64,000 bases of DNA from Romanomermis culicivorax. Its lineage: Eukaryota; Nematoda; Enoplea; Mermithida; Mermithidae. The stretch spans positions 868,001 through 932,000 of the forward strand of contig CAWUHX010000035.1 in NCBI GenBank assembly GCA_963922205.1, read 5' to 3'. Below, piece by piece: positions 11,789 through 59,760 of this stretch. The position numbers and the translations under genes are program-made. Position 1 is the stretch's first letter; each line of letters opens with the position of its first letter. A model generated the notes under the pieces. The model did not search any database, was not told where the DNA came from, and saw nothing but the letters and a program-made list of their open reading frames with translations.

Positions 11789-13673
11789 TTATCTCCTCGT
11801 TCCGTCTTCGAAGAAGATGCCGCCGTCGATGGCGCAATATTTGGGGCAGACACCCTTTTCGCCCTGTCGGCCAGGCGGGCCAGAGGGGCCTTGAGGTCCG
11901 GGGGGTCCGTCGGCGCCGGCCGGACCAGGCGGTCCTTTCGGTCCTTTGGGTCCTGCGGGGCCAGCTTCGCCATCCTGGATAGAATTTATACATGACTGAT
12001 TGCAGGAGTCGACTCATTGAATCAGCCGGAATAGGAAAATATGTTTGATACTTATAACATGCAACTCAAGACTCAAAAAAACATCAAACTGAATCATACA
12101 AAAAAGCTTAAAAAATTTCGTTTCGGGGGTTCACTTGAGAATAAAAAAAACCGTTTCTTACCTTTCCATTGTCCCCAGGAGGTCCTTGAGGTCCGGGAGC
12201 ACCGGCGTCGCCAGCATCACCCGCTTCGCCGGGTACGGGAGCGGCAGGTTGAGCGGGTACACCCGGGTCGCCGGCAGGTCCGTCGGGCCCTGGAGGTCCG
12301 GCTGGTCCGGGAGGTCCTTGCGGGCCGGGAGGTCCGGGAGGAGCGTCGGTGCCTGGTTTGCCTGGCGTGCCAGCTTCGCCTGGGTCGCCTGGGGAGCCGG
12401 GTGGTCCAGCAGGGCCGGGCGGTCCACTGGGGCATGGTTTGCAAGGTGGCGCAGACGGAGCTTCGCAAGGTCCGTTGGGCGGGGCACCAGGAGCGCCTGG
12501 AGTACCGGGGGCGCCGGGTTTACCGTTTTTGCCGGGTTTTCCTTGTGGTCCAGGTGGGCCTTAATATAAGAAGGATATAACGTGATGAACATATTCAAAA
12601 CTTTTTGTCATGTTACAACATTTGTATAGATTTTATACCGACAATAGTAACTCCATTTCGAGGAACTAAAACTTTTCTACAACAATACCTGGCAATCCGG
12701 GCAAGCAGCATCCATCACAAGGTCCCGATGGGGCCGAGGCAGTTTGAGCAACGTTGGAAACGGCACCAGATCCACTGCCACCGCCGCCGCCGCCGCCGCT
12801 GCCTCCGTAAGCTTGACGACCCGTCCTGTTCTGATGGGCCAAAGATTCGTCGACCGGGGTCGACTTCAAATTATTGACTTCAGACCATATGTCTTTGGCT
12901 GATCCCTAAAAAATGTGTTCTTTGTGAGACATGTGTCTTTAAAAACGAGGTCTTAACCAGATCGATTTAAATTGCTAATGTTCAATTTACGATACAATCG
13001 ATGGGTTGCAATATAACTACACTCCACGGTATGAAAACTATAGAGTTTTTGGTGAACATTGGAAGAGACAAAATGTTACTGTTCCATATAAGATTATATA
13101 TTTCGGTTGGATGCGAGATGGAACATTTTCATTTTTTAGAAACAAAAAATTTGTCTTACAAACTTGATTATCGGACGAAACAAAGTTTTGTGTAAATTGA
13201 TTTCTGTTTTATCGTCGATAATTGAAATTAAGAGAGATATCATTTGTAGATTTTTTCTCAAGATTTTCTCAAAATCCATTTCTGATTTTGTATGGTGTGG
13301 AAAGCAAATGATTCTCAGGAACGGTTTCTTGGATTCGCTAATACAAGAAGTTCTAGCTTGTACTGATAACTTGAAAAATCGTATCCGGAAGCACCGGGAC
13401 CCCAGCCTAGGCCGAATACCTTGGAAGTTCCAAAAAGTAAAGCGAACTGTTAATTATCAGAATACCATGCTTACAGGATGCTCCTGAATTCCAACTAACT
13501 TTGCAAAACTTCAGCTCGTGTTGCATTTGGTTCCTGACGTGTTGCACGTAATTGTACACCATAGGCAACGTAATGCAAACGGACAAAACGGCCACGACGC
13601 TGAATGTGACCGCCGAATAGGCCACGAATCTGTAGGCCTTTATCCTCGAATCGGCTTCTCCTTTATTGGTCAT
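11789..13673 (-). CDS. Nematode cuticle collagen (324 aa, 4 exons)
   Basis: Exons: 13673-13500, 12905-12689, 12559-12162 and 11974-11789; phases 0, 1 and 0 all match. Residues about 10-68 are the Col_cuticle_N domain: a hydrophobic anchor ([20 protein letters not shown]), then [10 protein letters not shown] joined across intron 1 to [14 protein letters not shown] at 85-88 fits the subtilisin/furin-type processing site of cuticle collagens. A Gly/Ser-rich linker and the Cys cluster [13 protein letters not shown] follow. The Gly-X-Y region is split by a Cys-bearing break ([18 protein letters not shown]) and by a second break ([10 protein letters not shown]). The C-terminus is [19 protein letters not shown] with two paired cysteines. 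Length and layout are normal for the family. The product is a secreted structural protein of the cuticle; the subfamily cannot be named from sequence alone. Confidence 0.97.
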
Positions 13674-14476
13674 GTTCGATCTTCGAACAAAAGGAAAGAA
13701 AATATGTACATTTAATTTAATTAGGCAAATTAACAGTTTCGAAAAAAGAAGAAAGAAAATTTCGCACAAAAGGCAAAAATAAAACTTACACGAAAATCTA
13801 CCAAATTGCGATAATCTTTGGCAAGAGTAACCTTTTATATATTTTTTTTTGGCGAGAAAAAAATAGTTCAGTGTGTTTCTATGAGAAAAATTTGTCTTCG
13901 CCGTTTCTCAGTGTGCCAAAAATTACGTTGGCCCAATTACTGTATTAGAGATACTGTATTCTCAGGTTACAGGAAAAATTTTGTAGGTCGTTTTTAAATA
14001 GTAACTTTTTTGGTTACTGAGCGAAGAATCTCTAGGAAATACAGAGTTCTGCGAAAAAAAACTTTTTCGCGTGTTTACCGACAGTTCTAGATTTTTTATT
14101 CGAACACGCAGTCCCAACTCATGCATAACTGAACCTGCCGCATCTTTCTAAAATTATGCGGTGATAAAAGGTTAATGAGAGCAATTATATTTAGTTTTCG
14201 GTGTATTATTCTAATTACAAAGAATGATAAGATCCTGATAACCCCAATAAAAAATTTATTTCCACATGCACCGAATCTGATCACTGATATTACAGGAGCA
14301 AAAACCAGTTGTTTCACTATTTTCTGTTTTGCGACCATTGTGAAGACTAACTTATTTTCAGTCAGTGGCAATGGAATCATTTCAACTTTAGTTTTTTGAG
14401 AAGTTTTAGATTCGAACACCCGAGACGCAAATTTATTTTTGCTAATATAGAAGTGGTGCGATATAAAATTTAATGA

Positions 14477-17114: not shown

Positions 17115-19377
17115 CTAGTTTATTACGAAATGCCCCGATGAGACAGAAAAAAAGAAGAATATACTTGCTTGGATAGTTGCCAAGCTAGAAAAAGGAGTGG
17201 GCTAGATTTTTAAAAATTTGGGTTAAGGTTTAAAAAATCCACTTCTGTAATATTGGATTTTCATTCTTTCTCATTAAAAATTTTTTCATGTCGATGGAAA
17301 AGTATATTCTGCAGCTTCGTGCATTTTGTCCTCCCCGTAGCATTGTATCAACCACGGTAAAATTTTTCTGAATGAAAATTCTATGGAGGCTAATGGTTGA
17401 CTTCACTTGAATGTGGAGAAATTCTAAACCAATAGCAATACAGCATGGTATGTCCTGAGTGATCCAAATCTATGTCTCTAACTAGTTGAAAAATAGTGAG
17501 GGTTGGCATATCACAGTCATTTTGTTTTTTTCAAATTATGTCTGTGATTGAAAGGCCATCATTAGGCGCTATAAAAATAACTGGGGTTAGTTGCACTAAT
17601 CTAATATGAGAATAATCCGAATGTTTGGATTAAATTGCTGAACCTCAGTCGTGCTTCATACTGGGTACCCAAGTAATTTGGGTACCTGGGTATACCTGGG
17701 TTGAGTGCTACCTAGGTATTCAGGTCACATGTTTACCTGAATTTCTAACAAGATATTGTATGGGTAAAACACTTATATAAATACTCCAATGTTCAAGTAC
17801 TTAAATATAGTACTCAGGTTGGGTATGCAAAATATCTGGGTAACATGAGTACTGTGAAGACTAGGTACCCAGGTCATAGGACCTTCAAAGTGTGAAACAC
17901 CAATCCTCAGTTTCAGCTAATCACAATGCCGATGTTATTTTCTTGCAGAACTAACAATCCTCACATCAGGTTTAGGGTTAGCTAATACTAAGGTTTAAGT
18001 CCAGGTTCATAAATTGCAGTTTAGAAATAAAAAAATTTCGAGAAAATAGTGCAACCCAATAGATTGAGATGGAGATAATCCTGATGATATCGAGACTACG
18101 AAACATTTGATATCATCCACATGTTAGTGCGGTTGCTGAAACTGAGGTGGTTGCTTTTTGTTCGAGATTATCTTTGAGCTCGAGGTTAAACTTTTAGTAG
18201 GTATGGGCCTGTTTACAGTCCTTGCGCACTGCCTACAAACATGGATAAAAGCATACAAAAATGATTTTAAAAAGTTTTTGATTCAGCCATGCAGATATAC
18301 AACTTTGACACAATTATCATCGCCAAACTTATGTCTCTAAATCGACGCATGTTTGATTTTACATGAAACAAAATTGTATCAAACACCCACATATGAAACA
18401 CTATTCACTATTTACTCATCTCTGTCTCTGTTAATATGATGGGCAAACTTGCTCTGCTCTGTGTCATGAAATCTTAACGTATTATAGTCCTCTTTGATCA
18501 ACGTCTGCATTGAATTGTATGTCCCATTGAACAAAAAGTATACCTGTAGCGCCTGTTGAATGAAAATGCCATATTTGTAAGGCAATGTTTCACGTCAATT
18601 TCATTTTGGAATTTCAGATTTTTTCCTCATCTGTACTATTCTAACGCTTGGCGCAAAATTTATCTAGTTCTAAGAAGACTTCATGCTATAGCTTTTTCTC
18701 TAAAAAACCTGAGTTGGATATTATGCGCTAACCACAGTTGATTCTGGTTTAATTGAGAGTAAATCAAGTAAAAAAGTTCAGTCCGGGCCTATGTAACCCC
18801 AGAGTTTTGAAAATGAAAGTATTTTCCCGTATGAAAAAAAAAATTTTTGTAAACTTTTGTGATTTTTGTCTCAAAAAATTAAGGTCCAGCCCTTCTGTAA
18901 CCACCCTGCACCAAATTTAAAAGCTGCACATGTATGGTTGGAAGTAGAGATGCACGGTAAGAATTTTCCAGGGACGAGTTGAAGCGTAAAAAATGTCAAT
19001 TTTTACCAACTCTTGTCAAAAAACCAGTTTTTCACATGTTTTTAGACTTTGAAAAAGTCCAAGGTGCGTCAATAGACTTTTTCCAGAGCACGGCCAGGGG
19101 TATCCAGAGTCTCAGTGGAAGGGTTTACTTCCCCACCCTATGTGCATCAATGGTTGGTAGGTGTGCTGATGCACTCAGCTGCAGAATGTACTTTTCCACA
19201 GACTTGAAAAATTTTTTAATGAGAAAAAATGAAAAACCAATATTACAAAAGTGGATTTTTCAAACTTTAACCCAAATTCTTAAAAATTTAGACCACCCCT
19301 TTTTCTGGCTTAGCAACTAACCAAGCAAATATATTCTTCTTTTTTCTGCTCCATCGGAGCATTTTCCAATGAACTAG
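17115..19377. mobile_element. CTAG-bounded inverted-repeat element, 2263 bp
   Basis: It begins CTAGTTTATTACGAAATGCC and ends with the inverted counterpart GGAGCATTTTCCAATGAACT followed by AG. After a small GCCCC/GGGGC-type hairpin, both ends run into AGAAGAATATACTTGCTTGG and about 200 bp more of inverted repeat. No transposase ORF is visible. A block of GGGTACC/TACCTGGGTA repeats at about 17660-17885 looks like a separate insertion. Other copies are at 28833-30459 and 40034-41002, and a right half ends at about 59753. Confidence 0.75.
17660..17885. repeat. TACCTGGGTACC-type palindromic repeat block
   Basis: Multiple variants of GGGTACCCAAG, GGGTACCTGGGTATACC, CTACCTAGGTATTCAGG and GTACCCAGGTC occur over about 225 bp, bounded by GGGTACCCA at the left and TAGGTACCCAGGTC at the right. 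It is probably a small foldback element nested in the larger CTAG element. No ORF. Confidence 0.6.
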
Positions 19378-19389
19378 TTTTCTAATTTT

Positions 19390-19710
19390 CTAATCAACGA
19401 AACCCCTTTTACCAAAAAATTACAAAAATATGCTTGTTTACATTCGGAACAATTTTTTGCGTGAAGTGACTGAGTCCGTTGAATTCCCCGCGATCGAAAA
19501 CCTCCCCCCCCCCCCCACAAAAATTTGCGAAAATACGTTTGTTTACATTCAGGATAATTTTTTTGTGTAAAGTGATCGCATCCGTTGAATTACCCGCAGT
19601 TGAAAACCCCCTCCTCCAAAAAGTCGCAGAAATGGATTTTTTACACTTAATATAGTTTTGTGCGTAAAGTGATCGCGTACATTCAATTCTCTGAAGTCGA
19701 AAGCCCCTAC
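19390..19710. repeat. Three copies of the ~98-bp TGTAAAGTGATCGC tandem repeat
   Basis: Units carry GTGTAAAGTGATCGCATCC, GTTGAATTCCCCGC, TCGAAAACCCC and AAAATACGTTTGTTTACA. They lie directly beside the right end of the CTAG element at 19377, the same arrangement as at 30.5 kb and 40.0 kb. One unit holds a run of 14 C at 19504-19517, a likely slippage site. Confidence 0.75.
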
Positions 19711-26600: not shown

Positions 26601-29600
26601 GGTTCAAATTTTGGGCGACACGGACGTTTGGGCCATCGTATTAGCATTGTCGTTCCAGGACATACCATTCGTGGTTGTTCGTCTGTATTTGATGATAGAA
26701 TACCGCTTGATGTCTTACACGATGATATTTTTCACGTGCAAAAACGCATTGGTTTTCACCTTGCAATTGTACCGATTCATCGTCATTCTGCAAGAACGCT
26801 ACAGTCGCACGAAGGTTGAACAGGTGAGTTAAGGCGGTAGACAAAAATTGATCAAATATAGGGCGAAGGAGAAGCGAAGAGTAGTCCAAAAGTGACCATG
26901 AGATGAGAAAATTAAAGTGTGGTTGGGTTAGTTAGTCGTTTTTGTATCAAAGCAGCTCCGAAAGCGATTTTAAATTTTAAAAAATTTGATGAACTGACAG
27001 AGTTGTGTATAGAACTATAACCGTATTAGTTTTCAATTTTCATGAGCGTGAAAATACGTTGGAGGTATGGGGTGAACCCTACCATACTTTCAATACCTTC
27101 AGGCAATTTCAAATCTGAATAACTCCTGAACTGAGAGCCGGAAATTAGTTTTTTTATCCATTGTTGGAAAAGTTCATGTAGCTAATGTGGTCGAAGTGGA
27201 ATCCCATCTCGAAGGAAATGTTTGTGCAACCGGGCTCTGGAACTGCATCTTGAAAAACGTCAATTCCAACATCATTTCAATGGTTTTTGTGTGGTACGAC
27301 CAACTTCTAACTTTGGCTGAAAAGTGAAATAATTAGGACGAAAAATGATTTATACCGAGTATATTAGTACGAAATTATCTTTACGTTTCATCCATAGAAA
27401 CGAACGACTGATACGAGTATATGGTTTTTATCATTTTATTCACGGTAGAAGATCGGCAGATGTACAGTCCTGAAGTCATTCGTGTTAATTAGGTTCGATA
27501 GCCTATTTCTTCTCGGGTAATGTCGCCCTGCATATTTAATCCGTGGGCCTTCTTCGCCGTGAAATTTGTAAAAGTGTGCTAAACAATTGAAAGTTCAACT
27601 GTATTTCATCTCAGGAACTATAATAGGTGCAGATGTAAAGAGTCGCACTCAAAAAGGCCGAGGAAAGGTTTCCATAATGATGAGAATTTAGACTCAGTTG
27701 CGAAATCCTCTTTTTGGCCAATTTAATATCAATTTCATATCACTTACACCGTTGGATAGATACTTGGAAAGCTGAAAATCTCGGAATTGGAATCAAAAAA
27801 CTCGTCCGCTGCTACGAAGTCCTAATCTTGAGCCATTTTCATGTCATGGGCTCACTATAGTTTGTTTATCGTAATATCCTTGTAAATTAAAGAATAGCAA
27901 GAATCTGCTCTGACTTGTGGTAGTCGGCTTTTAGCTTTCATGGAAATTTGCAGAATTTTTATTTGAGCACCTGCGCAATTCCTGCCAGTGACGTAACCTG
28001 GTTTTTGCGAAACAATCACACAAACTCAGTGGAACAGAGACAAATCGTTGTTATACCCTGATTAGTTACGAGTTATCTAATCGATTGGATATAACTGGAA
28101 CTGTATGTAAGGATAACGTAGGTAGGAATAAGCTTAAACACAAGCTTGAAGAATACAATTTTAATACCAAAAACTTCACTCGGGAAACGACTTTCCAACT
28201 GAATTGAAAACACGAAAAGTGACAAAAACTAACTCATGCACCAGTATTTAGCCTCTGTACCTAAACCGTGAGTCTAGGGGTCAATGACGATAGCTTATCC
28301 ATCAAGTTTAGTGTATGTATTTCCTTATGCCTTTTATTGGAGGAAAACACACTTGTTCATGATGCCATGTTTCAGCATCATGCTTTCATGCTCCAGAAAT
28401 GAGTGAAAATAACTTTTGCGGAAGGTTAATTTTGACTGAGAAGAGTCGAAAGCAATAAATCAAAACAAAATTAAGGAACAATAAGACGTTACAGTAAACT
28501 TAAGTTTTTCACAGTCTTCATGGTATTCCTGACTTTATTTTAAATTATTTCAGTCGTTTGATGCCCAATTTGTTCCGTTCTGGCACAGAACAATTTCTGC
28601 CTATAGTCTGTTCATTTTCAAATGAGCCTCGGTAATCAAAATAACTGGTAAAAATCAGTGAGCAATCAATAAATCTGTGTCGTAGACCGAAATCTTTTTT
28701 TCTCGGTTTGATCGCCTACCCACTACAGTCAACTCGAAAAAAAGGTGTCCGTATACGCAGGTTGTTTATTAGTGCATAAACATCTTTCTGCGCTCCGAGG
28801 CTCATTTGGAAAATACAGCATACATATATACACTAGTTTATTAGAAAATGCCCCTATGGGGCAGAAAAAAGGAGAATATACTTGCTTCGACAGTTGCCAT
28901 GGTAGAAAAAGAAGTGGACCAGATTTTTGAGAACTTGGGTCAAAGTTGGAAAAAATTCACTTCCTTTATATTGGATTTTCATTCTTTCTCAAAAAAATTG
29001 TCTATGTCTGTGGAAAAGTATATTCTGCAGCATCGTGCATTTTGTCCTTCAACTGGCATCAACTACAGTAAAATTTTTCTATATGAAAATTATATGCACC
29101 TGACTTCAAGTGTAAAGAAATGGTAGACCGATAGGATTCTAACTCCCGACCAATTCAAAACTCCTGCCTTTCACACTAGCTGAAAAATAGTGAGGGGGCA
29201 TATTATAGTCATTTTCAGAACTATAAAGGAACCTGAGGTTCGTTGCACTAAACCAACATGAGGACAATCTCAACATCGGGATTAAATTGATGATCCTGAG
29301 TTTAAGCTATTCAAAATGTCCAAATTATTTTCTTCCAATGCACAAATCATACTCACTTCAGGATTAACTAAAACTGAGGTTTAAGTTCGGGTTTGGGAAT
29401 TGTAGAAATTTTTATATTTATTTGCTTTAGAGATAAGAAAATTATGCGAAAATTTTAGTGCAACCCGACAGCTCGAGCTGGGGATAATCTCGACATTGAG
29501 CTTGTTATGATCCGGATGACATTCAAATTATACGGAACTTGAAATCAAACCGAGTGGCCTTTTTGTTCGAGATTACCTAGAGCTTGAGCTCAGACCCCTT

Positions 29601-32600
29601 TAGTGCAACTGGGATTTGGTTACAGTGATTGGGCACCGATCTGTAAATGGGATTCAGCCATGCATATATTAGGGGTCTGCGCCAAATCCCGTATCCAGTG
29701 CGACTAAGATGGGTGAAATTGCTTCCCGTTTGCAATCCGGCAAAAAGCGCTCTTTCTGCAAATTTCCGTTTAAATCCAAAAACTGTGAATGGTGCTATTT
29801 TGTTCAATAGTTAAATAGAAGAGAATAAATTTGTTTGTAGCTTGTAATCAGTAGAACATACGGAGTGAATTCTATATGATATGTTGTATAAAATGAGTGA
29901 ATGAAACGTATCTTGCACAATCGATTTAGTTCCTAGAAGACTTTGTGCTGTATCTCTATTTTCTAAAAAAGCTGAATGGGATTTTATGTGCCACTTTCCC
30001 TCAGTTGATTCCTTTTGTTGACATCAAATTCAGTAAAAATGTTTAACACAGTTGGAAGCAAACATGTGTGAGAGGGGACATGGGGGTATAAACTTCCACA
30101 AGGGTTTTGAAACTAGAAAATTTGTTATGCAAAAAATTTTTTGGTCATTTTTTTGGATTTTTTGTCTCTCAAAATGCTAAAACACCAAGGTCCACGCCTG
30201 TACCTTCCTAAAAATTTCAGAAATGCACATGTTTGGTTGGAAAGTGTGTTGATGCACTCAGCTGCAGAATATACTTTTCCACAGACATAGACAATTTTTT
30301 TGAGAAAGAATGAAAATCCAATATAAAGGAAGTGAATTTTTTCCAACTTTTACCCAAGTTCTCAAAAATCTGGTCCACTTCTTTTTCTACCATGGCAACT
30401 GTCGAAGCAAGTATATTCTCCTTTTTTCTGCCCCATAGGGGCATTTTCTAATAAACTAGTTCACCTCTTTTTAGTGGGCCTCAACCATGCACGAAAACTT
30501 TCATAGAAGCACATTGAAGTCTTAAATTTGGTCATCTGCACTTCAAAAAAACAATAAAAGAACTTCAAGCAACGAATTCTCACCTTCAGCAAAAGTAAAG
30601 GATGTGTAAACCGCATAGTACTTAAAAAAACGTTGTAAAAATACTGAAAGGTGACCATATCTATTGAATTCCTCATGGTTTAGAATCCTTCAACCCAAAA
30701 AATCGCAGAAATACCTTTTTTTACACAAATGACTTTTTTCATGTAAACTGACTCCGTTCATTGAATTTCCCATGGTCAGAAACATCTTCCCTCAAAAATC
30801 GCAGAAATACATTTGTTTACACTCAATATGAATTAGTGTGTAAAGTGATCACTTTCATTAAATTCCCAGTGGTCGAAAACCCCTCCCACAAAAAACTCAC
30901 GAAAACAGGCTTGGTTAAATCCGGAATAATTTTTTTGTGTAAAGTGACACATCCACTGAATTCCCCGCAGTCAAAACCCCTTTCATAAATATCACGAAAA
31001 TACGATTGTTTACACCCGCGATAGTTTTTTTTTTGTAAGATGATCGCATTCATCAAATTCTCCGTGATCGAAAACCCCGCCCACCGGGAAATCACGAAAA
31101 TACGTTTATTTACAACCGGAATAAGTTTTTGTGTAAAGTGATCGCATTCATCAAAGTCCCCGTGGTCGAAAACCCTTTCCAGCAAAAAATCACGAAAATA
31201 CGTTTGTTTACAAACGGGATAATTTTTGGTGTAAAGTGATCACATTCATTGAATTCCTCGTGGTCGAAAATCCCCTCCACTGAAAAATCACGGAAGTACG
31301 CTTGTTTACACCGGGATAATTTTTCGTGTAAAGTAACCGTGTCCATCAAATTCCCAATGGTCGAAAACCCCTTCCAGCAAAAAATCACGAAAATACGTTT
31401 GTTTACACACTAGATAATTTTTGGTGTAAAGTGATCACATTCATTGAATTCCTCGTGGTCGAAAATCCCCTCCACAAGAAAATTACGGCAGTAAGCTGTT
31501 TTACACCGTGGATAATTTATTTGTGTAAAGTGAGGACGTCTATTGAATTCCCCGCGGTCGAAAACTCCCTCCACTGAAAAATCACGGAAATACGCTTGTT
31601 TACACCCGGGATAATTTTTCGTGTAAAGTGACCATGTCCACAAATTCCCAATAGTCGAAAACCCTTGCAGCCCAAAAATCCCAATAAGGCTACAGGTATA
31701 TTTGAAACTGCAAAAAAATTGGTAGTGCATTACGCTGCAAAAAAAATTTTTTTTGAACCCATAAGTAGTATATAACAAAATTGGGGAATTTGGCGTTTTC
31801 CGGGACTTTGGACAACCATATAATTGAATTGAGGCCATATTTCAAACAAAAAAAAATTCGCATTTTAGATTACACCCCCAAGATGCTTAGGCCGAAGTAT
31901 GGAGGTTGGATATGGCACACCAATTGCTGGGCATGGTGGAACTGGGGGGCCTTAAAAAGTGCGTTTTTTACCTGTTTTTGAGGCCCCACCGAGCACCACT
32001 TGCAGATAGAGGCGAAATGACAAAAAGCACCCCATAGTTTGCCCCTATGCCCGATATTATGCAAAAAACCCGAAGGTTCTAGCTCTTACCGTTTTGGCTC
32101 TAGAGGGGGGGGGACATGAAATTTGGGGGCCAAGTATATTATAGGTTGACGCTGTCGCGCCACCTATGATAGTTTGAAAATAATAAATGCATAATACAAA
32201 AATACAACATAGTTTGAAAAAGTCAATTCTGTATGAGGTCAACATCTCGCCAGATGAGTTAAACGCCCAACTCAAACCAGTTCCGCATGCCGTGCCGTTG
32301 CGCGCTTTAGACTACCGTTTTTTTAATTTGTCCATCTGGCCAAATAACTTCCCTTGGCGCCCGTTTCATTTTGGCGTCCCTCTCATTTTGGCGCCGGTCT
32401 TGACTTTTCGCCCATTGTGCTATCCAAATAATTAGAAAGAAACTATTAACAAAATTAAAAAAATAATGAAAAAATGAAAGAACAAATTAAAATAAATAGT
32501 AGAAATTAGTAAAAATTTCGAGTAACGAAAGAACAAAAAATAATAATTATCAAAATGAGCCAAATTTAGACGGTGAACAAAACGCATTGTACGAAAAGAT

Positions 32601-35600
32601 TAATATACAAAATTTTTTTCTTTTTTATTCTTATTCCCCCTTCTCACTCACACTCAGTAAAGACTATATAACGATATCTTTGATCTTTGCAATTGGGTTT
32701 CACTTTCTCTGCCATCAGATCGCTAACTCGACCAGTTTCAGACGCATTTATGTAATTCACGTTAATGTGAAACAAGGCGGATAAAAACTTGTCCTTTTTT
32801 TAGCTGAAAAGAATTGTGTAATTCTTGACACGTCAGTATTTGAATTGAATTCCACTAGATCATCAGCATGCCGCAAATTGGAGCTTTTCAGCATCTTCAG
32901 TTCGAAATACAATTTTCCTCCTATGCTCTTTTGTACATATTGCTAAATTTTAACTACAGAATTATCAATAACAAAGTCACACTAATCAAAGAATCATTGA
33001 TTCGATGTCAGAGTTTGTTTGTCCATCACAGAAAACGAGTTTCGTCTATAAAACTGTTCTTTTACTGTCATATTCAACTTCTCAACAGCTCTTTTTTCAG
33101 GAAACATTGAGTACTATTTTTCTACTATCGCATGGGTTTTTTTATGTCGTTTTTTCATTTCTAATTCTAATTTTCATTTTTTCATTTCTAACTACAAATT
33201 TCATCTCTTAATTTCTTAATTAATCTTAATTTTTACTTCTTATGAAACCCAGACCGCGATCAGCTAATGCTCAGCATAAACGGAGCTCGCAATAATCCTC
33301 AGCATTAGTTACTGCAACCGACGCCAATTTCACAACTAGTATTCTTCTTATTTAACGTTCAGACTGTACTCTGGTGTAAACTTTTCTATCAAATGTTTGT
33401 AAATTGAAAAATGACAAAATATAAGTGCCGCCCTCAAAGTCGCTTTCATAAAATTTTTACTGAGGGATTTTTTACTTAAAAATAGTAAAAATTAATTAGT
33501 AGGCTAATAAACCTACAGTCCTATGCAACATATGGTTCATGAAGAAATGGTTAGTATATGAAATACTTTCCACTCTTAAGATTTCCAAGCATTTCAAGAA
33601 AAACAGACTGAATACCAAACTTGTGGAACACATATTATTCAATGCATAGACACGTTCAAAAGCGTCAACATTTGATCAAATTCCCGAAAGTTTTGTAACA
33701 TTTTTTAGGACGCTCATCGCTTGTTTCAACATTATCGAACCATGTTGGATGCCTGCAAAGACGTGTTGTATAGATTTCGCGACGAAGGCATAGAAAATTT
33801 CCGTGGAAAGGGGCGCAAGAAACGAACGCCCAAATCCGGCACTCATGATCATTCGTCGCCTAACGCCGTGGCTTCTTCGTCCAACATTGGGAAAAGGTGA
33901 TAATTTAACAACCCTGGCAAACTTGTCCCCGTACATGTGACGGAGCTACGAGGTCTATGATGCGCGGAAATCTTCAGGATTTTCTAAGGACGGGATAGAG
34001 AGTTAGTACAAAATTTTTGCTTCCAGAGACAGAAAAACTAAAAAATCAGCTAGTGATGTCAAAAATCCGTTTCATGTTTATGGCGCGGAGCATCAAAAAA
34101 ATTAAAATTTCTAACCATTTTCTTATTCGAAAATGACAAAAAAATAGACTTTTCGTCCCTGTGTTGCCCATTGCTCACGCCCTATAGTCTTCGAGATATG
34201 ATCGACGATATTATGGAGATTCCCATGAAAATTCACCTAATTACGTGTTTACCTGATTTACTGTAGGAGGCGAATAATCAGGTTTTATTTACGTCCACTT
34301 TTGTTTCATCAGATCCAAGTTGACCAATAGGTACACGTGATACCGAGACATTAGAGCGCGGCACAATAGGGCGCGGACATTAGAGCGCGGAAATTAGAGC
34401 GCAGGGACATTAGAGCGCGGACATTAGAGCGCAGAGACATTAGAGCGCAGGACAATAGATCGCAGGGACATTGGAGCGCAGGACAGTAGAGCGCAGGGAC
34501 ATTAGAGCGCAGGACAATAGAGCCCAGGGACATTAGAGCGTAGGACAATAGAGTGCAGGGACACTAGAGCGCAGGGACATTAAAGTGCAGGACAATAGAA
34601 CGCAGGGACATTAGTGCGCACGACAATAGAGCGCAGGACAATAGAGCGCAGGGACAATAGAGCGCAGGACAATAGAGCCCAGGGACATTAGAGCTTAGGA
34701 CAATAGAGTGCAGGGACACTAGAGCGCAGGGACATTAAAGTGCAGGACAATAGAACGCAGGGACATTAGTGCGCACGACAATAGAGCGCAGGGACATTAG
34801 AGCGCGAACATTAGAGCGCAGATACATTAGAGCGCAGGACAATAGAGCGCAGGACAATAGAGCACAGGGACATTAGAGCGCACGACAATAGAGCGCAGGG
34901 ACATTAGAGCGCAGGACAATAGAGCGCATGGAGACTAGAGCGCAGGGACATTAGAGCGCAGGACAATAGAGCGCAGGGACATTAAAGCGAGGACATTAGA
35001 GCGCAGTACAATAGAGCGCAGGGACAATAGAACGCGGACGTTAGAGCGCGGACATTAAAGCGCAGGACAATAGAGCGCAGGGACAATAGAGCGGATGCAT
35101 GGGGCAGGGCGGCCGCGCCTCCTTAACTCATGGTCTAAAAATAAAAAAAAGATAATGGTTAAACGCAAATTATCAGAAATCTACAAAACTTAATTAAACA
35201 CTGTAGCCAAAATTAAGTTTTTTCGAATTTTTTCTTCGTTCATCTATCCTCTATTTTCTTGCCGGTTGCTCCATTGTTTCGTCCTTTTTTCGGTTTTTTA
35301 GAAAAAAATTTTAAGAAAAAAAGAAAAATAAAAAAAAAATAAAAGATCGTTTGCGTGTCGAAGCAAAAAATAACAATATAAAAATTGTAAATTAAAAATT
35401 TTCGCCCCTCTCCCGAAAAAATTTCTGCGTCGGCCACTGAGACAATAGAGCGCAGGACAATAAGGGATAAGCGCAATAGAGCGCAAGGACATTAGAACTC
35501 AGGACGATAGAGCATGGACAGTAGACCACAGAGACATTAAAGCGCAGGACAATAGAGGACAGGAAAGTTAGATCAGAGCAAAATAAAAAAACGAAAATAA

Positions 35601-38600
35601 AATAATGTGAAAAATAACTACATTTCAGCCCAAAAATGCTTTCTTTTTAAAATTTTTCGTGTCTCTGAAGAAGTTCAGGTCAAAGGCGAAGCATTTTTCC
35701 ACCATGGAGCATTTGTCAAAAGTTGCGAAAGACACAAAAAATCGCAGATATTTGACCTTTGAACTTTCGAATAAAATTGATTCATTTTGTTATTTTCTAA
35801 TTGACCTTGAATTTCTAAAATTCGCGTTCATTGCAGATTACGGAAAGTTGATTAAATTTTTTTCGAACCAATAGATGTGCCCTAATGTCCCTGCGCTCTA
35901 TTGTCCTGGGTTCTAATGTGCCTGTGCTCTAATGTCCGCGCTCTATTGTCCCTGCGCTCTATTGTCCTGCGCCCTAATGTTCACGCTCTAATGTCCCCGG
36001 GCTCTAATGTCCTCACTATAGTGTCCCTGCGCTCTAATGCCTCTGCGCTCTAATGTCCCTGAGCTCTAGTGTCCCTGCGCTCTATTGTCCTGCGCTCCAA
36101 TATCCGCGCTCTAATGGCCGGTCACGGGTACAGGGTTGTCAAAAAAAACGACTTGCCTGAAACACTTCCTTCATCTCGGCCAGCAACGTTGGTGTTCGAG
36201 TCTTGTGTAGTATTATGAGTTTCTTGCTTTACAGTCCATGTTTTTAGCTGAGTACTATTGATGATCGGCGCTCACGTACATTACAATCCCTATTTGTTGT
36301 CAATTTTTAGATTACTCGAAGGGATTAGCAATATTTGATCAGGGTTATAATATGGTCCTTACTGTAGGAATACTAATAAAAATTTTGAAAGACAGTGTAA
36401 TAAATGTTTGGTTTCTGAGCTGTAGTCGTTCTTTTTTCAAATTAGAATCAGACATTACGATTTTTAAAACAACAGTTTGCCGAAATTTTCAGTATTGCCT
36501 TCATGGAAAATTCTCAAGATTAGAACATCTCCAAAACTTGGCTTTCAATTTCTTAAAATGAGAAATAATATTGTTATTGAACTTTTTTATTCAATTCAGA
36601 GTTTTTGACCAATATTCTCCATCAAGCTTTTCGATTCTTCTAGAATCTGTCGGAAATGCGGATGAAAAAATAACTAAATTTAGTGATCGCCAATCAGTGA
36701 CCGTGGATACATCAGATTTTTCAATTCAGTATCAAAATACTTCAACTGTATGTTCTAAGGTCATACATAGACCGTGCTAAGTAATGTCACATAAAAACTT
36801 CGATTTCTCGAATTTCTTGCGGATGTCGAAAAGAAGTATATGTTATAAGAAATTGAATGTTATGTAATATAATTTTCTAATTGATTTCAAAGAGAATTTC
36901 AGGCGGGATAAAAACATCGACGAACGATGTTTAGTAGATTTTAACATTTGCAAATTCTGCTGCCCTCAGATTTTGTGAAGAATTCAGGAATGAGTGATTT
37001 TAGCTGAGAAACGCTTTGGGCTAAATGTGCACTATTCGGTAACTATTCAAAAATCATAGGTGGCGCGACAGCGTCAACCTATAATATACTTGACCCCCCA
37101 AATTTCATGTCCCCCCCTAGAGCCAGAACAGTAAGAGCTAGAACCTTCGGGTTTTTTGCATAATTTCAGGCATAGGTGCAAACTACGGGGTGCCTTTTGT
37201 CATTTCGCCTTTATCTGCAAGTCGTGCTCGGTGGGGCCCCAAAAACATGAAAAAACGCACTTTTTAAGGGCTCCCAGTTCCACCACACCCCACAATGGGT
37301 GTACCATATCCAACCTCCATACTTCGGCTTAAGCATCTTGGAAGAGCAATATCAAATGCGAATTTTTATTTTTTTTTAATATGGCTTCCATTCAATTATA
37401 TGGTTGTCCAAAGTCCCGGAAACCGCAAAATTATGCAATTTTGTTATATAAACTCACGGGTTCAAAAAAATAATTTTTTTGCAGTATAATGCGCTACGGT
37501 GCCTGAATTTTTTACCGTTTCAATTGAACCGGTAGCCTTATTTAGATTTTTGGGGTGTTAAGGCCGATGTATAGTCGTCCTGATCCTTAAAAAAATGGCC
37601 TTTCCTGAGTCAGGAAAGCTCGTTCCCTAAATTTTCGATCCTGACGCAATCCGTAATCCTGAAATCAGGATCGGGATAGCGTTCCCGACCTGATAAGGAA
37701 AGGTGTTCCCGATGTCTTCCTGATCGGGAAAGGATCGGCTTTCCTGACGTCGGAAACAAAGTACAAGCCTTCCGTACTTTTTAAGGATCGGGAAAGCTAC
37801 ACGCTACAGTAAATACTCATCAAATGCGAAACGGCTTTAGCCTGCGCATAATTCTAGTTACATTTTCCGGTAATTGGAATGTAAAATGAAGTGAAATTAG
37901 CAAAAACTAAGAATTCGCTACCAGATAAGATAGAGTAGTCAGTTAAGAAATAGATTTTTCAAGTTTTTCGGTGAAATATGCGCACTTTACGCAAGTGCAA
38001 TACTTTGCAACTACAGCGCGTTGTAATACTGTAGTCATGTTCGTTTACAACAAAACGGCAGATTTGCGGCTTTTGTTGATTGATTCCAGCGTTTTATTTA
38101 TTGAAAAATTAACTTTCTAAAAAATTAATTAATTTCAATGTCAACCTTTATTAATTTAAAAAAATTTAAAATTAAAATATTTAAAATTAAAATATTTAAA
38201 ATTAAAATATTTAAAATTAAAATATTTAAAATTAAAATATTTAAAATTAAAATATTTAAAATTAAAATATTTAAAATTAAAATATTTAAAATTAAAATAT
38301 TTAAAATTAAAATATTTAAAATTAAAGTATTTAAAATTTAAAATTTGAAAAAATTAAAGTTTAAAATTAGAAAATTTTAACATTTTAAATTAAAAACTTT
38401 TTAAATTAGAAAATTGAAAATTGAAAAAATAAAAATTTTAAATTTTAAATTAAAAAATAAAAAATTTAAATTTAAAAAATTTTAAATTAAAAAATTTAAA
38501 ATTAAAAAATTTAAGGTTGAAAAATTTAGAATTGAAAATTTTAAAATTTAAAAATTTTGAATTTAAAAATTTTGAATTTAAAATTCAAAATTTAAAAATT

Positions 38601-41600
38601 CAGTTTAAAAATTTAAAACCAAAAAATTTTTCAATTTCAAATAAATAAATTTTAAAAAAATATAAAATTTAAAACCAAAAAATTTTAAAATTTCAAATTA
38701 AGAAATTTTTTAAAAATATGAAATTCAAAACTTAAAATTTTAAATTAAAAAATTAAAAAATTGAAAAATTAAAAAATTGAAAAATTTAAAATTAAAAAAA
38801 TTAATTAAGGGGGGATTGAAATATGACAAATAAACAAAAAAACACCATAAAAACAATGTATGTAAACATGTGCAACACAAAAAAAATATCAGAATAATGT
38901 ACAAGATCAATAAAATGTATAAAATCTACTGTCTGGTCGTCTTCATTTATACAACTTACGCATCTCAATATCTAATCTTACTGTAAAATATTTGTCATGT
39001 AGTCGTCCTGATCCTTAAATTTAGGGACGTTAAGGACGACTTTACCTGGTCCTATCCTTTCCTGATCCTTATCGGGTCAGGAACTCAGGATTAAGGATCA
39101 GGATTACGGATTACTATACATCGGCCTTTAGGGTTTTCGATCATAGGGAATTCAATGGACGCGGTCACTTTACACAAAAACATCATTAATGCAAATAAAG
39201 GTACTCCCTGGCTTTTTGGAGGAAGGGGTTTTCGACCATTCGGGAGTCGACGGACGCGGTCACTTTACAATGAAAATTTTGTTGGGTGTAAACAAGCTTA
39301 TTTTCGTGATCATTCGGGGCGAGGGGTTTTCGACCACGGGGAATTCAATGAATGCGATCACTTTACACAAAAAATTATTCCCGCGCCTAAACAAGTGTAT
39401 TTTCGTGATTTTTTGGTGGAAGGAATTTTCGACCACGGGGAATTTAATGAATGCGAGCACTTTGCACACAACATTAGATTGAGTGTAAACAAACGTATTT
39501 CTGCGATTTTGGGGGTAAGCGGTTTCTGATCATGGGGAATTCAATGGATGCGTCACTTTACACGAAAAATTATCTTGAGTGTAAACACGCGTATTTTTTG
39601 GGGAAGAAGTTTCTGACCACGGGGAATTCAATGAATACGATCACTTTACGCATATAATTATATTGAATGTAAACAAATGTATTTCTGCGATTTTTGGAGG
39701 AAAAGGTTTCTGACCATGGGGAATTCAATGGACACAGTCACTTCACACAAAAAATTGTTCTGTGTGTAAACAAAGGTTTTTCTGCGGTTTTTTTGTGTTG
39801 AGCGGTTCTTGATCATGGGGAATTCAATGGGAATGATCACTTTACACTCTGTTTACAACGTGTTTCCCATTTTATGCGGTTTACGCATCTTTTACTATTA
39901 CGGAAAGTGAGAATTCGTAGCTTTAAGATTGTTTTTTATTATTTCTTTGATGTGAAGATGACCAAATTTAAAACTTCAATGTGCTTCTACAAAGGTTTTT
40001 ATGCATGTCTGGGGCCCACTAAAAAGAGGTGATCTAGTTTATTAGAAAATGCCCCAATGGGGCAGAAAAAAAGAAGAATATACTTGCTTGGATAGCTGCC
40101 AGTCTAGAAAAAGAAGTGGACTAGATTTTTGAGGACTTGGGTTAAAGTTGGAAAATATTCCCTTTCGTTATATTGGATTTTCACTCTTTCTCAAAAAAAA
40201 TTTTCCATGTGTCTGTGAAAAAGTATATTCTGTAGGTGAGTGCACCAACACACTTTCCAACCAAGGCCCTGTTGCACTAAAGGGGTCTACGGCCGAGCTC
40301 AAGATAAACTCGAACAAAAAGGCGACTTGGTTTGATCTCAAGTTCGGTATAAATTGAATGTCATCAGGATTATAACGAGCTCAATGTCGAAATTATCCCC
40401 AGCTCGAGCTGTCGGGTTGCACTCATTTTCGCATAATTTTCTTATCTCTAAAGCAAATAAATATGAAAATGTCTGCAATTCCCAAACTCAAAGTTAAACC
40501 CCAGTAATCCTGAAGTGAGTATTGTTTGAGCACTGGAAGAAAACAAATTGAAAATTGCAATTAGATCAAACTCAGGATCATCAATTTAATCCCGATGTTG
40601 ACATTATCCTCCTGTTGGGTTAGTGCAACCAATCTCAGGTTTCTTTATAGTTCTGAAAATGACTATAATATGCCTCCCCCACTATTTTTCAGCTAGTGTG
40701 ACAGGCAGGAGTTTTGAGTTGGTCGGGAGTTAGAATCCTATATAATTTTCATATAAAGAAATTTTACTGTAGCTGATGCCAGGAGAAGGACAAAATGCAC
40801 GATGCTGCAGAATATACTTTTTCACTGACATTAAAAACTTTTTTGAGAAAAAAATGAGAATCCAACATGACGAAAGTGGTTTTTTCCAACTTTAACCCAA
40901 GTTCTCGAAAATCTAGTCCACTTCTTTTTCTAGCTTGGCAGCTATCCAAGCAAGTATATTCTTCTTTTTTCTGCCCCATCGGGGCATTTTCTAATAAACT
41001 AGTTAAGATATACTCAAAATCTTCGCATACTACGAAAACATGCGGAGTATGATACAATTAACTGTGATTTGCTGGGAGGGGAACAAATTTGCTATTACTA
41101 TAGTTATTAAAATAAATTTTTAGTATATGTTGCGGAAAATAGTTTACAGTTATATTATGGGCAGACTTCTCCCTACAGACGCCACAGAAACGAGCGCGGT
41201 AAACGCAGCAGCGCCGTATCTAAAATGTTAGTCGACGAGACAGAGGACTCCATGATATCTTCAGAAATGAACACCGCTGCTCAGCTACAACATCGACATC
41301 ATCATCGCCAACGCCGGGACGAGACTGTCGCCAAACCGTCGATCGTGACGCCTGTGAACGTAAAAAAAGCGGCCAAAAGTACGAGCTTCCAAGAAGCCGA
41401 CGAAATAATAAGGATAGATTTCTTTCGGGAAGGCGAGACGGAAGAAGACGATGATTCGAATGAGGTTAGAGTTATAAAAATCCTAAATAATTCAGCAATA
41501 CATATTTCTATAGTGAACTACTGATTTTCCTTAGGATTGTTTGCATTTTTACCTACATAAAGAATAGAGGACTATTCAAAAACGTGTCACTCTACTAACG

Positions 41601-44600
41601 TATTGTGTGTGCCGACGTATATAAGTCTTTCTGTCTTCTGGTTACTAGCAAAACCTTGATTTCCACCGGTTTCACATTTTCTTGCAATTTTTGAGGGACT
41701 CCATATTCTTCGTAACCCTAATAAAGGCCACCTATTTATTCATTTTTGTATTTTCCGAATACTATTGATATTATTGAGCAAATGTATGGATATATGAACT
41801 CCAGAAACTATGCTGACTCTGCTCACCCTAACAAAACTGACGAGGAAACATATTCTGCAGTGGAAATTCTAAAATGTGGTAAGTTATACCGTGGTGAGTA
41901 ATGTTACATAAGCCGTTCTTCCCAGTGAAGCCCTATTCAGACGTGGAAAATCCTAGGATTTTTGTTGCCGATTCATAGGATTTAATCGGCGACAGTCGGC
42001 GCTCCTAAGGAATGAATAGGCAATTTACAAAAAGCCCGGTTCAGGATTGAAAAAATCCTAGGATCTTTCTCACCGACAATCGGCGACGGTTGGCGACAGT
42101 CGGCAACAATCGGTGGCAAAAATGCAGAATGTGGTCTTCGAACTAAGATGGAAGTAGTGTTGAGTATTATACCTACATTAATCTTGACTTGAAAAACAAA
42201 ATTAAATTGTGGGGCGCCAGTACGAGAATCCTAGAAAAAAATTTTGAGCGGAAATGAAGAAATGACTAGAAATTCGACTTTGGATGATCATTCTCCTCTG
42301 TGATATTTACAGTAGTTACACATCACTAGTGACCTAAAGCCGATACTTGCAAAATACTCCGTCAGGCATATACTTATATATTCCTTAGGCATAGGCTTAG
42401 GGGCGAAGCGAAGCACCCGAAGGGCGCGAGCGAAGCCGCTTGGGTGTGTGCGAGACGCCCGTCCTGCTAATTCAATCATAAATCGTTCCTAACGCTGGTT
42501 TCGAATACGTCTGCCGTGCTAGACTATGTACTGCAATTATTCCACAGACTATAAGTAAATAAACAAGAAGCTACATAGCAATTTGATATGATAAAGTGAG
42601 CCGGGTAGACAGCGATAGAGGAACTGTACAAAACTGAATAACGTAACTCATCACAATAGAGAACACCAAGATATCATAAGTGGCGCGAGAGCGTCAACCT
42701 ATAAATACTTTGACGCCTAGAATTGGGGATATCCCTCCTAGAGCAACGGATATTATATTAAAAAACATGGGTTTTTTCTGCATAATATCCGGCATAGCTG
42801 CAAATATGGGAACACATGATGTCAGGGAGGCTCGTTATGTGGAAAAATCTAGTGTCAAATGTTGCATCATGTGCCATTTTACAACTTGCTTTTGGATCAC
42901 TATTTCTAAACTTTCAGTTTATCTTTGTCGTACATGCGGGTCAAAAAGATGAATTTTCTCAGAATATCTCTCAGAGAATCTCATGATTTTTTTTATTTTT
43001 AATAAAAAAGTCCAATAAAAAGAAATTTGACACATTAATTATTGTCTGCTCTGAGAAAATGCTTTTTAAACTTCACACTTTTTGAACAAATGGCACATTA
43101 GATACAATATTGGAGACAAGTTCAATGACAATTCTTCGACATGTAATCATATGTAAAAAATGTCATCCAATCGCAGGACGGCTCAACATAAACTCCGCCT
43201 ATCTGAAATAGCCACTTCACTGCAACCAAATTACGAATATATTCGAGATTACTTTTTTTAATTCGTTTCAAAATGACTGTAGTACATAATGAAAAATTTG
43301 TATTAGAAATTTAAAAATTGTTCGAGGAAATGACTAAAGTGAAACTGCTGACTTTGGTGACTTTGTTCACTGGGTTTTTGACAGATTCTCATAGAATAAT
43401 GAATTGGATGGGAAATAGTTTCAGTTTTAAAAAATCCCTCAATAATTAAAAATAATTTCAGTCAGTTTTAGACTGATCCATCTGCATCTCTCAAATGAAC
43501 AAAGTCTTGAAAGTTTGGATGAACCAATTTTACTCCAAACAGTGTATTCGCTCCTGATGGTTATAGTAAACGACTGCAGCTCAAATACAGACGTTTACTG
43601 TTCATTCCACTCAATTTGCATCGAAGCTAGGATGTTTTGTTCGGCAATACGATTTAGAGGCTTTATTCGCACTGTACCTAGCGTTTTCACATAACTACAG
43701 TAAGATGAAGGAAATTAGGGCTTGGACTGTTTTATACCGTAGTCTAATTACTTTATATACAACAGTGAATTTCCTCATATTTGTGAAGACTGACGCTGGA
43801 AACCTCATATGTGAAATGGACAACTGAGAGGATGCACTTGGAAGTACCGCAATCTTTCGGCCATTTAAAGTCCCTGCTATACTTCGTCCTGCGCACGCGG
43901 GTCGGAACTACACAGTTCCTGATAACAAAATATATATCGAAGGACACAACGTTGACAGGAAAGTAATCCAAAACCTGACTGAAATGCTCCGGATATGTAT
44001 CTTAACAGTATGTGAATGGTAATGTATCTTTTCAGTTTAAAATTAGAAAATGAAATAACGAACGGAGCGAACATCTTTTCGTTCTGTTGTACAGTAGAAT
44101 AATAAAATGCAAAAGCCGAAAATTTAGTTGTTCGAAAATAACGCGAGAATTTTCATTTCGTCTCATTATTTTTTACAAAAATAGGAAGTGAGACCAGGGA
44201 AAACAGACAAGGTAGTCCTTTTTCGATGCCTGATCACTGTTGCCACAAATTAACAGCAGGTTTAATTCCTCTCACTGAAGGGTGCACATATAGGTTTGGG
44301 AGTAAACACTTTCTGTACCGAACTAAGATTTAACGACCTTTTAATGACGCGTTTGGCCCAAAGTCTTTTTTTTTCAGATTTCTTACGCCTCTAAACATTC
44401 CGCCAAACGTTCAGACGACTTTCCAAAATTGGAATATCATTCGGACGACGATCGTCGGTCACTGGGGGCTGAACGTCGTAATCATCGTCGAACAAATCGC
44501 CAAAAATCCGAAGATCTTTGCATCAACGACGAACGTCGAGCTGACGATGGTCGACGTCAAAGTAAGCGTCCGTCGCACAGTAAGAAGCAGTCGTTGCTGC

Positions 44601-59149: not shown

Positions 59150-59753
59150 AAAATTACACTGCAGCAGGTTGAAGCTATATTGATTCCTGATCGGATGGAT
59201 GAAGCATGACTGAGGATCAGCAATTTAATCCAGGCAGATTAAATTACTGATCCTTAGTCATGCTTATTCGCAGGTTGGGTAAGTGCGATTGATCCCAGGT
59301 CTTTTATAGTGTTTAATGACGCCTTTTCAATCACAGGTATGAGTTGAGAAAAAACAAAATGACTGTAATATGGCAATCTCAGTATTTTTCAGCTAGAGTT
59401 AGATGCATATATTTGGATTAGTCCGGACCTACAATGCTGTCTTGCTATTGGTTTAGCATTTCTCAACATTTGAGTGAAGTCAACCATTAGCTTGCATATA
59501 ATTTTGATACATGAAAATTTTACTGCGGTTGATACAATGGCATGGGAGGACAAAATGCACGAAGCTACAGAATATACTTTTCCACAGACATGAAAAACTT
59601 TTTGATGAGAAAGAATAAAAATTCAATATTACAAATGTAGATTTTTCAAAGTATAACTCAAGTTCTCGAACAGTCACCCCTTTTTCTTGCTAGGCAACTA
59701 TCCAAGCAAGTATATTCTTCTTTTTATGCCCCATTGGGGCATTTTCTAATAAA
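59150..59753. mobile_element. Right half of a CTAG-family inverted-repeat element
   Basis: The segment ends GGGGCATTTTCTAATAAA at about 59753, preceded inward by CCAAGCAAGTATATTCTTCT and TTTTCCACAGACATG, as in the other copies. At 59208-59277 GAAGCATGACTGAGGATCAG pairs with an inverted copy, CTGATCCTTAGTCATGCTT. The left half is absent, and the final CTAG has been replaced where the adjoining element starts. Confidence 0.7.
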
Positions 59754-59760
59754 TTATATA

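Follow-up and report, generated by a model that had tools for sequence, protein, structure and literature searches.

The stretch of Romanomermis culicivorax DNA described here (the window: 64,000 nucleotides of contig CAWUHX010000035.1, positions 868,001 to 932,000, numbered below from its first letter) includes a Tmem26 gene, in which exon 6 lies between two long arms that mirror each other. The gene model has eight exons, two of which match Pfam Tmem26. Three alternative placements of the exon 3-4 junction keep its frame open and were selected for that reason; they predict 579, 575 or 587 residues. An original prediction, made from the letters alone, had described a single nested palindrome with its left arm in intron 5, its right arm in intron 6 and a 188-bp, frame-shifting exon 6 between them. 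The splice model agrees with this placement and with the length and phase of the exon, omission of which would add seven new residues before translation stopped after residue 316, 312 or 324, depending on the variant. The palindrome itself, however, is not a single structure. We are highly confident that each arm is a separate insertion of one non-autonomous Helitron family present in many copies, one lying in intron 5 and the other, facing the opposite way, in intron 6. The family was characterised from 20 places of approximately 9.9 kb each, fetched from a genome search with the spacer of the intron 5 copy and picked by likeness to that spacer. The features of the locus are as follows.

26824-33708: Tmem26 intron 5 (splice model).
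28833-32169, minus strand: the intron 5 Helitron (copy A, 3337 bp), with its 5' end at 32169, its 3' end at 28833 and the module order of the fetched genome copies.
28833-30459, minus strand: palindromic 3' region of copy A, with 209-bp arms that are 98% complementary and an outward-facing 3'-end motif at both ends.
30461-30640, minus strand: 'spacer' of copy A, a repeated internal part of the element, found in 40 places including itself at 96-100% identity (40 scored of 1850 first-look candidates).
30660-31665, minus strand: 98-bp tandem array of copy A, inside the element.
31668-32169, minus strand: 5' block of copy A (about 500 bp); in the 18 of 20 loci whose focal copy has this block whole and unbroken, identity to it is 94.8-98.6%.
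33709-33896, plus strand: TMEM26 exon 6, 188 bp, placed by splice sites and frame; single-copy, as the genome search returns only itself.
33897-41178: Tmem26 intron 6 (splice model).
37054-41002, plus strand: Helitron copy B, 3949 bp including an insert, in intron 6, with flanks ...caaaaa|TC (5') and ...CTAG|ttaa (3').
37054-37557, plus strand: 5' block of copy B, matched at 87-88% by 39 unlinked places (2621 candidates, 40 of them scored).
39131-39850, plus strand: 98-bp array of copy B.
39875-40033, plus strand: spacer of copy B, 83.1% identical to that of copy A.
40034-41002, plus strand: palindromic 3' region of copy B, in a shorter form.

Self-comparison of the window recovers the mirror arms, and the coordinates first given for them were nearly exact. 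Overall, 28824-32178 is paired in inverted orientation with 37046-41011 in three blocks of 78-86% identity, namely 28824-29621 with 40259-41011 (83.5% over 800 columns, E-value 0.0), 30233-31370 with 39131-40264 (78.5% over 1152 columns, E-value 0.0) and 31668-32178 with 37046-37557 (85.9% over 519 columns, E-value 3.9e-169). The inner limits proposed earlier, 32172 and 37055, were close, but the element ends are in fact at 32169 and 37054. Nor is the insertion in the right arm the sole break in the symmetry, as had been thought, because 29622-30232, about 0.6 kb of the copy A CTAG region, has no matching stretch in copy B. The spacer, described as unique, is repeated across the genome, and the four modules, read as separate features placed in mirror order, are parts of a single high-copy family whose internal order is fixed.

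This order is evident from the fetched loci. The spacer and 98-bp array are found in the order and orientation of copy A, with the CTAG region beyond the spacer, in all 20, though the CTAG region is shorter or rearranged in some. The 5' (495-bp) block is present in 19, broken in two in L026, and absent from L027. In seven other, short loci from the spacer search, likeness to the window ends at 32170-32177, which is the 5' end of copy A, and in L008 a second unit adjoins directly at the element 5' end. Since the order is common to the fetched loci and likeness to the window stops at this point, the composite is one repeat family ending near 32170. The family order is 5' TC, 495-bp block, 98-bp array, spacer, palindromic region and CTAG 3'. 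As each copy has this same fixed order, two copies facing apart present their modules in mirror order.

Read from the 495-bp block toward the CTAG end, copies start TCATAGGTGGCGCGACAGCGTCAACC. The 3' end carries a hairpin, GCCCCATCGGGGC in most copies (TGCCCCATCGGGGCA, located 16 nt from the terminus in most), followed by ATTTTCTAATAAACTAG. Termini were compared in 18 copies, comprising those of 16 of the 20 loci together with copies A and B; L015, L019, L025 and L027 were left out, their outer ends not having been found. The host base before the 5' TC is A in 18/18, the 3' end is CTRR in 18/18 (17 CTAG, 1 CTAA) and the host base that follows is T in 17/18. The flanks of copy A are ...aaacta|TC at the 5' end and ...CTAG|tgta at the 3' end. 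Flanks are identical over 2 bp in four copies, 4 bp in two and 6 bp in one, with none at 3 or 5 bp, and hence there is no consistent target-site duplication across the 18. When flanks were joined and compared with the window and loci L009-L061, those of four of the 18 copies matched another place across the junction. The candidate empty site for L020 in L014 is gap-free across the junction and that for L018 in L015 has one gap adjoining it. The family is abundant, with 2017 exact 3' ends and 485 exact 5' ends in the 359 Mb genome against none for either reversed control motif. Among the first 100 exact 5' ends listed, there are four same-facing and three opposite-facing neighbours within 20 kb, and opposite-facing neighbour copies are not special.

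Parts of three more copies of the family lie in the window, at about 17115-19700, 42674-42804 and 59356-59757. Elsewhere, contig C134 has two 5' blocks facing apart with 113 bases between them (among the places listed for the copy B 5' block). The segment L015:4678-8132 repeats spacer, array and 5' block in tandem, head to tail, and adds a third 5' block that is incomplete, as would happen if rolling-circle copying continued past its end.

Between stops, open frames within copies A and B reach at most 143 and 144 residues. In the genome, PF14214 (Helitron-like domain) has 44 matches, 43 of them over the cut-off, against none in 14 control genomes, and four of the matches are in open frames of about 1960-2020 residues. 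Contigs C52 and C411 each carry three PF14214 domains, within about 34 and 30 kb respectively and several in long open frames; these groups are possibly clustered RepHel Helitrons. Thirteen RepHel loci (12 short ones and L041, which begins inside its gene so that its 5' end is out of view) were scanned for both end motifs of the family and compared with copies A and B. The sole hit was a 3' motif with 6 mismatches in L040, taken as chance.

A local inverted duplication, placing a second arm across exon 6, would account for the same modules in mirror order, but it would also make copies A and B each other's closest relatives. They are not, clearly so for copy A and by a small margin for copy B. 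The 18 focal copies whose 5' block is intact match that of copy A at 94.8-98.6% identity, against only 88.1% for copy B, and 20 of 21 unlinked blocks are closer to copy A than copy B is, the exception being the second copy in L021 (83.9%). The spacers agree, copy A being 95.5-97.8% identical to the 20 focal copies and the L015 tandem repeat and 83.1% identical to copy B; 21 of 23 unlinked spacers are closer to copy A than copy B is, the more distant ones being the second copies in L021 (82.8%) and L011 (73.7%). In addition, both arms stop at element termini with their own A and T flanks. Duplication is ruled out by the nearest-neighbour identity of copy A, unless gene conversion from elsewhere has rewritten copy A, and is considered highly improbable. 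A single 12-kb foldback or long-terminal-inverted-repeat transposon bearing exon 6 would fit the end motif found on the outside at both 28833 and 41002. The termini on the inner side (32169 and 37054) are however ordinary 5' ends with A flanks. The proposal is ruled out by the single-copy exon in the loop and by the seven further spacer-search loci, whose likeness to the window is lost at 32170-32177 without reaching the loop, and its probability is close to nil. The fetched 9.9-kb loci are too short to reveal a second arm 5 kb away and have no bearing on it. Repeats are a known source of misassembly, but the arms differ by 12-22%, each is joined to its own flanks, and the gene frame is open across all eight exons; an assembly artefact is thus very unlikely.

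Several points weigh against two independent Helitron insertions. Measured against the 5' block of copy B, 13 of the 21 unlinked blocks surpass copy A in identity, but by 0.8 points or less (best 88.9% against 88.1%), so that copy A is almost as near to copy B as the nearest unlinked relatives in the set, a point in favour of duplication. A search with the copy B 5' block found unlinked places at the same 87-88% level, with copy A not among the matches listed; as the margin is small and just 40 of 2621 candidates were scored, independence rests mainly on copy A. Because likeness to the copy A spacer guided the choice of the 20 loci, the set leans to the copy A subfamily. The 5' TC was built into the search motif. 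The other two matches across joined flanks are less clean, that of L012 being contiguous but diverged at the junction and that of L023 with L009 being gapped there, and an empty site for copy A or copy B was not found in the window and loci L009-L061. No autonomous element with the family termini was found among the 13 RepHel loci scanned, and canonical Helitrons do not usually have a palindromic 3' region.

Independent insertion of two Helitron copies nonetheless remains the strongly preferred explanation. Copies A and B would have arrived at different times, or from different subfamilies, each presumably by rolling-circle transposition that targeted an A|T dinucleotide and left no target duplication, a mechanism suggested by their anatomy. 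A terminal inverted repeat (TIR) transposon would later have landed in copy B, and if exon 6 splicing is affected at all, this would come about incidentally, through pairing of the introns. An abundant element whose internal order is fixed can thus, when copies fall by chance in the right places, produce a striking nested palindrome, and mirror order alone is poor ground for inferring function.

The palindromic 3' terminus is a more unusual feature than the layout of the locus. The family 3' terminus occurs twice per element, as inverted, outward-facing copies of about 200 bp, and the inner, inverted copy is kept in 19 of the 20 fetched loci. Among the first 100 listed of the 2017 exact 3' ends there are 27 facing-apart pairs, and the doubled terminus looks widespread in the family. 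The CTAG module was also considered as an independent TIR element. This was rejected as no solo CTAG element was seen in the ten of these 27 pairs that were examined; spacer-like sequence, judged by eye, lies on one side and other sequence on the opposite side in 10/10. Arms within a copy are on average 95.5% identical, compared with 92.7% under shuffling, and 97.0% compared with 95.1% when the 17 young copies are taken alone, with 0/20000 shuffles as high in either case. The own arm is best or tied in just 6 of 19 copies, and the within-copy excess could be explained by shared subfamily ancestry. It is conceivable, though doubtful, that the palindrome is restored in the course of rolling-circle copying or afterwards, for instance through fold-back synthesis at the 3' hairpin, and that the pair at this locus also causes a minor fraction of TMEM26 transcripts to form circles or to lose exon 6, giving a truncated protein. 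A literature search on Helitron tail-to-tail or inverted ends returned nothing about Helitrons by title, and no claim is made that a palindromic 3' end is unpublished. The feature provides a lead on the evolution of Helitron ends.

Though ordinary in cause, the layout could still affect exon 6 splicing, and circular RNA formation or exon skipping is mechanistically plausible. In the available part of PMC8330042, Caenorhabditis elegans introns flanking circular RNA exons are described as rich in reverse complementary matches, and that of PMC8516420 ties mammalian circular RNA loci to young transposons. Complementary matches are present in both introns flanking exon 6, with perfect runs of up to 40 nt between intron 5 and intron 6, and the 5' blocks are predicted to form a duplex of -707 kcal/mol. 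These matches and the C. elegans precedent favour an effect. However, a 108-nt perfect self-complementary run in copy A would compete, and the copy A 3' arm has a predicted self-pairing energy of -358 kcal/mol (208 nt), compared with -355 kcal/mol (263 nt) for its pairing with copy B. Exon 6 is separated from the arms by 1.5 kb on its 5' side and 3.2 kb on its 3' side, and selection would probably oppose high levels of skipping, since skipping would truncate the protein. A detectable effect of the Helitron pair on exon 6 circularisation or skipping, which is compatible with independent insertion, is therefore rated as unlikely. Such circles or skipping, if real, would be a nematode case of Helitron-driven back-splicing.

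Two further repeats lie within the mirrored region.

34345-36119, no strand assigned: a separate repeat in the 'loop', in intron 6, with two facing 15-16-bp arrays, 34347-35093 and 35882-36116.
37558-39130, no strand assigned: a TIR DNA transposon within copy B, 1.57 kb, with ends AGGCCGATGTATAGT that are inverted over 15 bp and a probable TTA target duplication.

The TIR transposon, which we take to be PIF/Harbinger-like, is younger than copy B, which it splits. Among 269 candidates, of which 40 were scored, 39 further places resemble its left 273 bases at 97-100%, and an AT-rich array occupies its middle, at 38159-38804. The array unit of the loop repeat is GACATTAGAGCGCAG. The middle of the loop repeat, 35600-35870, recurs at 86-91% in 39 further places (689 candidates, 40 of them scored). 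In self-comparison, the arrays of the loop repeat form a second inverted pair, separate from the Helitron arms. Elsewhere in the window, a nematode cuticle collagen N-terminal domain (PF01484, E 2.5e-18), which marks the host as a nematode, is found at 13410-13907 on the minus strand, and a GC-rich repeat at 12270-12341 lies about 1 kb from it.

Canonical Helitrons, as characterised in the available part of PMC4067079, have a 5' TC, a 3' CTRR and a 16-20-nt palindrome about 11 bp from the 3' end, and insert between A and T without a consistent target duplication. The family resembles their non-autonomous forms in its 5' TC, 3' CTRR and short palindrome near the 3' end, and in sitting between A and T with no consistent duplication. 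It differs in that the hairpin is 15 nt and 16 nt from the end, and in the second, inverted internal copy of the 3' end. Tandem arrays within nematode Helitrons are shared with the satellite-carrying Helitrons of C. elegans (from the part of PMC4595182 available), but the unit is 98 bp here and 11-40 bp there, the latter sizes being our own reading of the last number in the family names. Like the Helentron, DINE-1 and HINE elements, also covered in that part of PMC4067079, the family is abundant and non-coding and has tandem repeats and a 3' stem-loop. Those elements, however, go into TT and carry subterminal inverted repeats, whereas the family described here inserts at A|T and ends in CTRR.

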